A stretch of DNA of 14,590 bases from the NCBI GenBank assembly GCA_026785785.1, contig JAJAZI010000122.1, positions 1 through 14,590 on the forward strand, written 5' to 3'. The number at the start of each line of letters is the position of its first letter. The stretch's first letter is position 1. The notes under the pieces are model-generated. The model ran no database searches. It was not told where the DNA came from and saw nothing but the letters and a program-made list of their open reading frames with translations. The stretch comes from Microbacteriaceae bacterium (GTDB taxonomy: Bacteria > Actinomycetota > Actinomycetes > Actinomycetales > Microbacteriaceae). Both the position numbers and the translations under genes were made by a program. Shown here in pieces: positions 9,334-12,078 of this stretch.

Positions 9334-10404
9334 ATGTCTCTTCGCGTCGCCATCGTCGGAGTGGGAAACTGCGCCAACGCCCTCGTCCAAGGAGTCACGT
9401 TCTACCGTGACGCCGCCGCCGACGAGGTCATCCCTGGGCTCATGCACAACCGGTTCGGCCCCTATTCCGTCGGCGATGTCGACTTCGTGGCCGCATTCGA
9501 CGTCGACGCCGCCAAGGTCGGCGCCGACCTCGCCGACGCAATCTGGGCCGGCGAGAACAACACGCTCGCCTTCGCCGAGGTCGCACCGACCGGCGTGACC
9601 GTGCAGCGCGGACCGACCCTCGACGGGCTCGGCGAGTACTACCTCGACACGATCGAGGAATCGGATGCCGCGGTCGTCGACGTGGCGCAGGCGCTCCGCG
9701 ACGCCTCCGTCGACGTGCTTGTCTGCTACCTCCCGGTCGGCAGCGAGGAGGCGGCGAAGTTCTATGCGCAGGCGTCGATCGACGCGGGGGCGGCGTTCGT
9801 CAACGCCTTGCCGGTGTTCATTGCGAGCGACCCGGAGTGGGCGGCCAAGTTCACCGCCGCCGGCGTGCCCATCGTCGGTGACGATATCAAGAGCCAGCTC
9901 GGCGCGACCATCACCCACCGCGTGCTCGCCCGCCTGTTCGAAGAGCGCGGGCTCGTGCTTGACCGCACCTACCAGCTGAACGTCGGCGGCAACATGGACT
10001 TCAAGAACATGCTCGAGCGTCGCAGGCTGCAATCGAAGAAGATCTCGAAGACACAGGCCGTCACAAGCAACCTCGACAACGAGATCAACGCCCGCGACGT
10101 GCACATCGGCCCGAGCGACCACATCCCGTGGCTCGACGACCGCAAGCTCGCCTTCGTGCGCCTCGAGGGCCACGGCTTCGGCAATGCCCCGACGACGCTC
10201 GAGTACAAGCTCGAGGTGTGGGACTCGCCCAACTCCGCCGGTGTGGTCATCGACGCAATCCGCGCGGCGAAGGTCGCGCTCGACGCCGGCCACGGCGGTC
10301 CCGTCGAGTCGGCATCCGCCTACTTCATGAAGTCGCCGCCGACGCAGTACCCGGACCCGGTGGCGCGGGAGCTGCTTGAGCAGTTCATCCGTGACAACGC
10401 CTGA
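9334..10404 (+). CDS. ino1: Inositol-3-phosphate synthase (actinobacterial type)
   Basis: The product has 356 residues. It converts glucose-6-phosphate to 1L-myo-inositol-1-phosphate with NAD+, feeding phosphatidylinositol and mycothiol synthesis in actinobacteria. The N-terminal Rossmann motif is [10 protein letters not shown] (5-14). The catalytic region has [10 protein letters not shown] (181-190), [12 protein letters not shown] (216-227), the Lys-rich L-Q-S-K-K-I-S-K-T (232-240) and [11 protein letters not shown] (261-271). AAGGAG at 9319-9324 sets the start at 9334. Many relatives have a PadR-like regulator gene immediately upstream; here the neighbour is rpsF, divergent, with 151 bp between. 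Confidence 0.96.
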
Positions 10405-10405
10405 T

Positions 10406-10558
10406 CCCGCTGTCATTATTCAGGAGTGGTAGGCAGTATTCAGGAGTTGGCGGCGCCCGAGGGCCCGACCGGCCTGACCAATCCGGGCATTTGAGGCCAT
10501 CCGGCCGCTCCACACTCCTGAATTCCGCTGCCCACTCCTGAATAATGAGAGAAGCGGG
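10406..10558. repeat. 153-bp nested inverted repeat with four ATTCAGGAGT copies
   Basis: The outer arms TCATTATTCAGGAGTGG (10413-10429) and its exact complement (10532-10548) are 17 bp and perfect, flanked by CCCGCT/AGCGGG (10406-10411, 10553-10558). An inner pair shares GGCAG and ATTCAGGAGT (10432-10447 and 10514-10532), with a short length difference. The 10-mer thus occurs four times, at 10418 and 10438 direct and at 10514 and 10534 inverted, with 20-bp spacing on each side and one common centre at about 10480. It fills the gap between the convergent ino1 and CCA-transferase stop codons. It could be a REP/MITE-like element, a large bidirectional terminator without T-runs, or an array of protein-binding sites. 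Confidence 0.92.
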
Positions 10559-10566
10559 TGTGGCCG

Positions 10567-11994
10567 TCAGGGGCGCGCGGCCCACCAGGCGGTGAGACGC
10601 TCGGTGGTCTCCTCCGTGCCCAGCGCACCCTCATCGAGGCGCAGCTCGAGCAGGAAACGGTAGGCCTCGCCTACCTCTCGCCCCGGGCGGATGCCGAGGA
10701 TCCGCATGATCTGCTCGCCGTCCAGGTCGGGGCGGATGGCGGCGAGCTCCTCCTGCTCAGAGAGCGCCGCGATGCGGTCCTCGAGGTCGTCGTAGGCGAA
10801 GGAGAGCCGGTCGGCCTTGCGCCGGTTGCGGGTCGTGACGTCGGCGCGCACAAGGATGTGCAGCCGGTCCAGCAGCGGCCCGGCGTCGCGCGCGTACCGG
10901 CGCACGGCCGAATCAGTCCAGGCGCCCTCGGTGTAGCCGAAGAACCGCAGGTGCAGCTCGACGAGCCGCGCGACGTCGGCGATGAACTGCTTGTCGAAGC
11001 GCAAGGCCTTGAGGCGCCTGGCCACCATCTTCGCGCCGACCACGTCGTGGTGATGGAACGTGACCACGCCGCCCGGCTCGGTGCGCTTGGTCGATGGCTT
11101 CCCGATGTCGTGCAGCAGGGCGGCCATGCGCAGCACGAGGTCGGGGGACTCCGGGTGCGCCCGGGACGCCTCGAGCTCGATGACCTGGTCGAGCACGGTG
11201 AGGCTGTGCTCGTAGACGTCCTTGTGGTGGTGGTGTTCGTCGATCTCCAGCCGCAGGGCGGGGAACTCGGGCAGCACGAGGGCGGCGATGCCCGTCGCAT
11301 CGAGCAGTTCGAACCCGACCCGCGGGCGCGGCGTGCGCAGCAGCTTCGACAGTTCGTCGCTGATCCGCTCGACCGAGACGATGCTGATCTGCCCGGCGAG
11401 GGCGTCCATCGCCTGCCTCGTCGGCTCCGCGACCGTGAAACCGAGCTGCGAGGTGAAACGCGCGGCGCGCAGCATCCGCAGCGGGTCGTCGCCGAAGGAT
11501 GCCTCTGGGGCGCCTGGCGTCGTGATCCGCCCGGCGAGCAGGTCGTCGAGCCCGCCGGCGGGGTCGACGAGCACGAGCTCCGGCAGGCGCAGCGCCATCG
11601 CATTGATCGTGAAATCACGCCGAACGAGGTCGCCCTCGAGGCTGTCACCGAACTCCACGAGGGGCTTGCGGGTCTCCCCGTCATAGGCGTCGGTGCGGTA
11701 CGTCGTGATCTCAACGGTGTGCCCGTCGATGCGGGCACCGATCGTGCCGAACGCCCGGCCGATGTCCCAGTGCACGTCGGCGAGCGGCTTCACGACAGCG
11801 AGGATCTCGTCGGGGACCGCGCTCGTCGTGAAGTCGAGGTCGTTAAGCTGCCGACCAATGAACGCATCGCGGACCGGACCGCCGACGAGGGCGAGTTCGT
11901 GGCCGGCGGCGGCGAAGGCGGCGGAGAGACGGGAGATGTGCGGCAGCGCGGCGAGGTCGGCGAGCCTCTTGATTGCCGAAGCGACGCTCTCCAT
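10567..11994 (-). CDS. cca: CCA tRNA nucleotidyltransferase
   Basis: The product has 475 residues from the ATG at 11994. It adds or repairs the 3' CCA of tRNAs without a template. The nucleotidyltransferase head has L-V-G-G-P-V-R-D (37-43) and the metal-binding D-L-D (52-54). R-R-D-F-T-I-N-A-M-A (125-134) and D-D-P-L-R-M-L-R-A-A-R-F (169-180) are the class II base- and tRNA-handling motifs. An HD phosphohydrolase domain follows, with H-H-H-H-K-D-V-Y-E-H (254-263) and L-L-H-D-I-G-K-P (293-300). The frame continues 23 codons upstream, but the added residues are Gly/Arg-rich and unlike the family, so 11994 is preferred even though no strong ribosome site is visible. Actinobacterial copies are often labelled pcnA; poly(A) polymerase activity is less likely. 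Confidence 0.94.
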   Translation of the reverse strand: MESVASAIKRLADLAALPHISRLSAAFAAAGHELALVGGPVRDAFIGRQLNDLDFTTSAVPDEILAVVKPLADVHWDIGRAFGTIGARIDGHTVEITTYRTDAYDGETRKPLVEFGDSLEGDLVRRDFTINAMALRLPELVLVDPAGGLDDLLAGRITTPGAPEASFGDDPLRMLRAARFTSQLGFTVAEPTRQAMDALAGQISIVSVERISDELSKLLRTPRPRVGFELLDATGIAALVLPEFPALRLEIDEHHHHKDVYEHSLTVLDQVIELEASRAHPESPDLVLRMAALLHDIGKPSTKRTEPGGVVTFHHHDVVGAKMVARRLKALRFDKQFIADVARLVELHLRFFGYTEGAWTDSAVRRYARDAGPLLDRLHILVRADVTTRNRRKADRLSFAYDDLEDRIAALSEQEELAAIRPDLDGEQIMRILGIRPGREVGEAYRFLLELRLDEGALGTEETTERLTAWWAARP

Positions 11995-12078
11995 GGTCGT
12001 CAAGCTTGCCACACCCCCGCCACCGCACCGGCGCACGAGGATGCCCCTCGCGTCCGAGGCCAACCGGTGGCGACGGCC

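Follow-up and report, generated by a model that had tools for sequence, protein, structure and literature searches.

DNA uptake sequences of Neisseria and Haemophilus combine a conserved core with a lineage-specific flank and often form inverted pairs at gene ends. MatP/matS is a chromosome-domain site system, and Sal-box/TTF-I represents the protein roadblock terminators of eukaryotes, in which tandem protein sites of about 18 bp lie just downstream of genes. The REP/BIME repeats of enterobacteria and pseudomonads, which are associated with RAYT transposases, are dispersed, extragenic, often located between convergent genes, arranged in arrays and targeted by IS110-family elements (PMC1525189, in excerpt), and the REP unit is itself imperfectly palindromic, its head being GT(A/G)G (PMC2817692, in excerpt). 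The repeat family described here shares the former traits; however, its unit is a non-palindromic 18-mer, its arms run direct then inverted instead of alternating, its distances are phased, and no RAYT was found in the genus. It has the conserved core, the lineage-specific flank and the inverse pairs at gene ends of DNA uptake sequences, whereas its sites are much sparser, regional, phased and stacked in tandem arms. Tandem sites of about 18 bp just 3' of genes are common to Sal-box/TTF-I and this family, which differs in its two facing arms at a phased distance, its bacterial host and its putative protein. As with MatP/matS, the sites are restricted to a part of the chromosome in some genomes, but they form non-palindromic paired arrays, enriched on the origin-proximal side in Marisediminicola antarctica and G085 and on the distal side in G237 (a single genome in each case). 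Neither a published description of the family nor the combination of Microbacteriaceae with palindromic and intergenic repeats was found among the open-licence papers listed, and among the matches listed for the 10-mer ATTCAGGAGT in open-licence text, none concerned a bacterial repeat, as judged from titles and the beginnings of abstracts.

The window, a stretch of 14,590 nucleotides from a Microbacteriaceae bacterium, carries one array of this family between the convergent genes ino1 and cca (Table 1). The cca product has the poly-A-polymerase head, RNA-binding and HD domains (Pfam PF01743, PF12627, PF01966). The first-pass annotation had described four copies of the 10-mer, two direct and two inverted around a single centre, spaced 20 bp apart within each arm and enclosed by perfect 17-bp outer arms, and direct reading with a scan reproduces this arrangement exactly, with the inner pair 76 bp apart. 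The element ends that it gave (10406..10558), about 2 bp from the ino1 stop and about 8 bp from the cca stop, agree with the stop codons as located. Allowing one mismatch, the window holds four core matches against a shuffle mean of 0.38, and none of 200 shuffles reaches four; the array is not a product of chance. M. antarctica keeps the element at the same junction with 20-bp arms, a centre distance of 75 bp compared with 76 bp and one of the four cores mutated, and a copy is absent from the ino1-cca junction in three other genomes of the genus (G002, G003 and G005).

Table 1. Sites of the array and the genes on either side of it (window coordinates)
Feature	Position	Strand	Description	Basis
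Outer left site	10410..10427	+	5' half CTGTCATT at 10410-10417 (1 base from CTTTCATT) and exact core ATTCAGGAGT at 10418-10427	Direct read, scan
Inner left core ATTCAGGAGT	10438..10447	+	20 bp from outer core; 5' half degenerate	Direct read, scan
Centre	10448..10513	.	Core start to core start 76 bp, ~7.2 turns of 10.5 bp	Direct read
Inner right core, inverted	10514..10523	-		Direct read, scan
Outer right site	10534..10551	-	Exact core at 10534-10543 and minus-strand 5' half CTCTCATT at 10544-10551	
Perfect 17-bp outer arms around the array	10413..10548		10413-10429 (TCATTATTCAGGAGTGG) and 10532-10548 (complement)	Direct read, scan
ino1, myo-inositol-1-phosphate synthase	9334..10404	+	Stop 10402-10404, 5 bp before the array (outer site 10410)	Pfam PF01658
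cca, tRNA nucleotidyltransferase, convergent	10567..12063	-	Stop 10567-10569, 15 bp beyond the array (outer site 10551)	

The array belongs to an abundant dispersed family, as the first-pass annotation had proposed among its candidates. The source genome (2.40 Mb, 82% complete) contains 115 exact copies of ATTCAGGAGT (58 + 57), against 0 + 0 for the reversed control, and the other genomes of the genus contain 120 (G001, M. antarctica), 21 (G002), 4 (G003), 76 (G004) and 0 (G005), with a control count of zero in all six. Such abundance outside genes is the pattern of REP/BIME. The earlier reading had named in advance what would reduce the element to a single chance or terminator hairpin, namely a 10-mer at chance frequency and no other symmetric pairs, combined with RNA 3' ends showing ordinary termination; on the genomic side of this, the search instead found the core both abundant and paired. 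Density is about one site per 20–40 kb in the three richest genomes of the genus, and the stretches fetched for inspection cover 103 of 115 exact cores in the source genome, 110 of 120 in M. antarctica and 48 of 76 in G004. The element sequences of G002 match Marisediminicola senii loci, and the source of the window is most likely a member of Marisediminicola. The four copies of G003 are lone cores on four contigs and G005 has none, so both genomes are without the element, which is thus not essential. With a 15-base word and up to three mismatches, G003 yields 30 and 40 matches against 9 and 6 in the reversed control, and G005 yields 40 and 20 against 4 and 5; every listed match carries two or three mismatches, no paired arrays occur among the matches listed, and the excess may reflect composition or weak relics. 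Across the family, at least one copy is present in 223 of 299 genomes scanned, most of which hold 0–6 copies (reversed control 0–4 per genome), and 10–31 copies are found in eleven genomes outside the genus, from eight genera. G026 has 23 copies, and G105, which is 85% complete, has none.

The unit extends beyond the core, with a 5' half of about 8 nt and the 10-nt core forming an 18-bp site, CTTTCATY-ATTCAGGAGT, whose consensus in the source genome and M. antarctica is GCTTTCATC-ATTCAGGAGT. It is non-palindromic and has no GT(A/G)G head; symmetry arises from pairs of units. An array consists of one to five direct units, a centre and then inverted units, and this orientation rule is strict for neighbouring exact copies at most 300 bp apart in stretches fetched from three Marisediminicola genomes (n = 164), where 53 are ++, 63 +-, 48 -- and none -+. 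The outward exact-core pair is also absent from the fetched stretches of other genera; one occurs among the exact cores listed for G243, and with one mismatch allowed, six of the nine arrays excluded from the distance analysis below hold one. Direct units mostly repeat at 33 bp, and also at 20, 31, 43, 54 and 64 bp, with spacers that vary by locus. A different arrangement is seen in genus g81, where +-+- arrays and 21-bp tandem copies occur (G243 C8:1079043-1079140; L177, L178 and L179 of G085). By eye, a second palindrome, GGATGCTG...CAGCATCC, recurs in many centres (e.g., L042:1217-1310 and L124:1530-1650).

The distances between facing arms form a comb at 72–76, 82–84, 94–95, 103–106, 115–116, 123–127 bp and beyond. 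Centre distances were taken between the innermost facing cores with at most one mismatch, the distance itself being unselected, from arrays in plain direct-then-inverted order, which leaves out nine. Collapsed to one distance per locus where both flanks matched, 60 distances from the genus give a Rayleigh z of 24.4 at 10.5 bp, with some dependence remaining (L034 and L057 are 97% identical within one genome), against a maximum of 12.2 in 1000 nulls jittered by up to 6 bp and scanned over periods of 4–30; five of the 60 (58, 64, 112, 145 and 149 bp) are off the comb. The value rises to 35.6 when M. senii and ACE_ACT MAGs are added (78 distances) and is 13.6 for exact cores only (63 distances). 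M. antarctica alone gives 2.6 with exact cores (24 distances) and 15.6 with one mismatch allowed (36 distances), the former being low because degenerate inner sites are skipped.

The comb recurs in other genera. Of 398 family genomes, 17 have exact inverted pairs 57–87 bp apart, including four from the genus itself, and the control has none. Outside the genus, 23 distances, collapsed by hand (G034 one per distance; G276 dropped as an orthologue of G237) and including two near copies from G237 and ACE_ACT distances also counted among the 78, fall only at 61–63, 72–75 and 80–84 bp (z = 13.1; largest of 20000 uniform draws, 8.6). Pairs at 88–118 bp are found in eight of the 398 genomes; those outside the genus measure 94, 96, 88 and 108 bp, of which the last two are off the comb, the 88 bp of G243 spanning other exact copies and the 108 bp of G192 apparently spanning a degenerate copy. 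Direct spacings within arms are phased as well (141 distinct, z = 97 at 10.75 bp), and after removal of those near 33 and 66 bp the remaining 63 still give z = 36 at 10.75 bp and z = 29 at 10.5 bp. Whole-turn distances, the pattern of a protein array, are thus found both across centres and within arms. Changed centre distances between orthologues only lean to whole turns (z = 2.6 in 13 overlapping comparisons, out of 27 that overlap within loci). A short tandem repeat in the centres was considered as the source of the comb; self-identity across 87 centres is 0.293 and 0.287 at lags 10 and 11 compared with 0.295 at lag 9, and the centres thus lack a self-similarity at 10–11 bp from which slippage could have produced the comb. 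The first-pass annotation had argued that equal 20-bp phasing exceeds what a hairpin terminator needs and would place all sites on one DNA face. That phasing matters is borne out by the 60 loci and by its recurrence outside the genus; as to the face, one can read from the phase that whole-turn steps are kept, not which face is used.

The bias to convergent gene ends, also anticipated by the earlier reading, is pronounced. Among 40 clusters in M. antarctica, 26 lie between convergent, 12 between co-directional and two between divergent genes, and the 31 clusters of the source genome comprise 15 convergent, 13 co-directional and two divergent cases and one without assigned context. By comparison, 400 kb of M. 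antarctica sequence analysed with the same settings contains 317 pairs of neighbouring genes, of which 54 are convergent, 56 divergent and 207 co-directional; gene calls came from our own codon-usage caller, and slightly different settings gave 54/321 convergent. Convergent contexts are enriched in M. antarctica (p = 7e-10) and in the source genome (p = 2e-4), and divergent ones are fewer (p = 0.04). The tally omits the lone cores L106, L133 and L140, which lack the 5' half, and counts the elements split by insertion sequences (L102 and L103) as separate clusters. Positions persist: 17 of the 31 source-genome elements correspond, by matches on both flanks, to a locus in M. antarctica that also bears an element, in a search limited to such loci, where empty sites are undetectable. 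In 12 orthologous elements from the two genomes, selected for few core mismatches, the cores are 97.5% identical and the centres 74.8%. The number of arms varies while the centre distance stays constant, as in a 4+4 and a 1+1 array that both measure 106 bp.

In other genera the core is accompanied by different 5' halves, GTTCGGAA in G034 (g30), GGTGTCGGAA in G026 (g22), ATCTCCACA in G237 (g75) and about CCTTTCC in G085 (g81, eight sites). The half is largely uniform within each genome and differs between lineages; TCGGAA is common to the g30 and g22 halves, and CTTTCATC is common to the ACE_ACT MAGs and the genus of the source genome. These dialects stand at shared positions. All three of g30, g75 and g22 have elements between the same two neighbouring genes and after glyS (glyS of G026 by coordinates). 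In addition, g30 and g75 share elements after leuA, within nadB and following one more gene, g75 and g22 share the position next to rpsT, and g30 and g22 share the one after uppS. Pfam identified glyS, uppS and the nadB-like FAD protein, and the genes that we take to be leuA and rpsT were named by position. In two genera the elements (L163:10366-10438 and L248:17966-18011) fall within the coding region of one and the same FAD-dependent gene of the nad operon, where they appear to be translated in frame as part of a variable linker. A constant core whose neighbouring half has changed genome-wide suggests a trans-acting partner with drifting specificity. A lone core in M. antarctica (L140:1470-1559, ~3 kb before glyS) has a GCCGGAA 5' half, resembling the g22/g30 dialect, and is possibly a relic of a terminus-side set.

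Taken together, the comb, the fixed orientation and the lineage dialects make an arm-bridging protein the best reading, and we hold with moderate confidence that the arrays would be DNA-level binding arrays for a putative sequence-specific protein that bridges the facing arms. Each 18-bp site (5' half and ATTCAGGAGT core) would bind one protomer, direct copies would be stacked at whole helical turns within an arm for cooperative binding, and the whole-turn distance between arms would let the protein on the left arm join that on the right across a loop of 60–200 bp. Because the arrays closely follow stop codons and often separate convergent genes, the loop so formed would most likely block read-through transcription from both directions, or mark a topological boundary at which supercoils from convergent transcription accumulate. 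The protein, the bridging and the barrier role are what we infer from these patterns; the arrays would belong to an old family of dispersed repeats and probably serve as barriers where genes end. The need for a barrier acting on two sides is less obvious at the co-directional clusters (12 of 40 in M. antarctica and 13 of 31 in the source genome), and the dispersal of whole elements, which also fits a mobile origin, and the elements within one coding gene in two genera argue against the binding-array reading.

Mobility is the basis of the main rival, in which the arrays are a non-autonomous MITE- or REP-like repeat, the arms being transposase-binding ends phased for the joining of the ends of a very short element and the gene ends being tolerated insertion sites. 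We consider this account rather unlikely. Some copies clearly seem, from their similarity, to have arisen by copying: six elements of about 225 bp in G004 have full-length identities of 68–75% in the listed pairs, and two G237 copies, separated by 8.5 kb, share 89% identity over 99 nt. Mobility is favoured by such scattered copies whose centres are related, by the ino1-cca junction of G004, which is free of the element and has its stops 1 bp apart, and by the region-limited spread in G034 and G237, as described for some REPs that cluster near their transposase gene (PMC2817692, in excerpt). However, the RAYT/REP route put forward in the first-pass annotation finds no support, as the unit is not itself palindromic and the Y1 transposase domain PF01797, searched as that of a candidate partner, is found in none of the six genus genomes, whereas five of 14 control rings were positive. 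No target-site duplication is evident by eye at the flanks inspected, and the same gene ends are occupied in several species and genera. Carriers were not recognised either: three exact patterns had no match in viral contigs, one M. antarctica array had none in phage records, and plasmid records gave only weak matches of 27–31 bases to the window element, none of them an array. In addition, MITE ends do not usually carry variable tandem arms, which are seen here. Two IS110-family copies, identical over about 1.5 kb, sit inside M. antarctica arrays (L102:1978-3252 and L103:1842-3116) and split the core after ATTCAG; the core word appears to be their insertion target, and IS110-family elements insert in REPs of other bacteria (PMC1525189, in excerpt).

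Action at the RNA level, in which transcription of the array would yield a long hairpin able to halt RNA polymerase arriving from either direction, seems improbable. As RNA, the window element has a strong fold on each strand (z -7.8 and -6.9), which is explained by the inverted cores, and it is located at convergent gene ends; by eye, ordinary inverted repeats occupy the ino1-cca junction in two other genera (L207, L208), and many centres contain a GGATGC...GCATCC palindrome. Nevertheless, inner arms outside the core pair no better within than between loci (permuted values at least as high as observed in 579 of 2000 permutations for G000, 982 for G001, 260 for G004 and 723 for G034), which argues against a hairpin as the explanation in the genus, and only the 11 ACE_ACT elements show a weak within-locus excess (77/2000). 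The cruciform that had been listed as a candidate, like an RNA hairpin, therefore finds no support there as a selected feature. The T-run noted as missing is indeed absent, with no GC-rich stem and T-run terminator in 10300-10700, and a search with Rfam covariance models returned for the window element only a match below threshold (19.1 bits against 90). A hairpin would also require no invariant 10-mer, lineage dialects or 10.5-bp comb. By analogy with Neisseria and Haemophilus, the sites could be DNA uptake words whose inverted pairs double as terminators, which would fit a conserved word that is dispersed, has lineage dialects and often occurs in pairs where genes end, but this is very improbable given about one site per 20–40 kb, the regional concentration seen on the chromosomes of three closed genomes and the helical phasing, which uptake would not predict.

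More tentatively, the arrays may form a family-wide chromosome-organising system, in which an orientation-dependent 18-bp site, with a 5' half drifting within each lineage together with the putative bridging protein, would build whole-turn loops where genes end, within defined parts of the chromosome, thereby insulating convergent units, somewhat like the convergent boundary sites of eukaryotes. A genome-wide 10.5-bp comb in natural site distances is a strong sign of protein bridging obtainable from sequence alone. The arm-bridging reading predicts that a protein binds ATTCAGGAGT with the lineage-specific neighbouring half and that half-turn spacing breaks function; the arrays would offer testable cases of convergent-gene separation without a T-run terminator in bacteria and of a dispersed site set and its binder possibly shifting specificity together.

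The regions concerned differ among genomes. Of 38 forward-site clusters in M. antarctica, 21 are no more than 420 kb from dnaA (KS p = 2e-4), and all 12 clusters of G085 lie within 684 kb of it (KS p = 1.6e-3). In G237, 18 of 23 copies are located 1.05–1.20 Mb from dnaA on a 2.59-Mb circle (KS p = 4e-7, 17 clusters); these tests take clusters as independent, an assumption that local copying would violate. All 31 copies of G034 fall in one 117-kb stretch of a region syntenic with that of G237, and the copies of G026 are more spread. The element region of G237 and G034 is marked by glyS, a gene that lies at a long distance from dnaA in each of four closed genomes inspected. Of 141 G034 ORFs in this neighbourhood, 58 have a match among 180 G237 ORFs; ten proteins from the two neighbourhoods, a minority of those present, were run through Pfam and are metabolic, transport or housekeeping proteins, and no partner gene was recognised in this sample. 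A long run of mostly minus-strand small ORFs in G034 (C12, ~217–254 kb; L242-L243) has no G237 counterpart and is possibly a prophage; it holds no exact core, and both of its flanks do.
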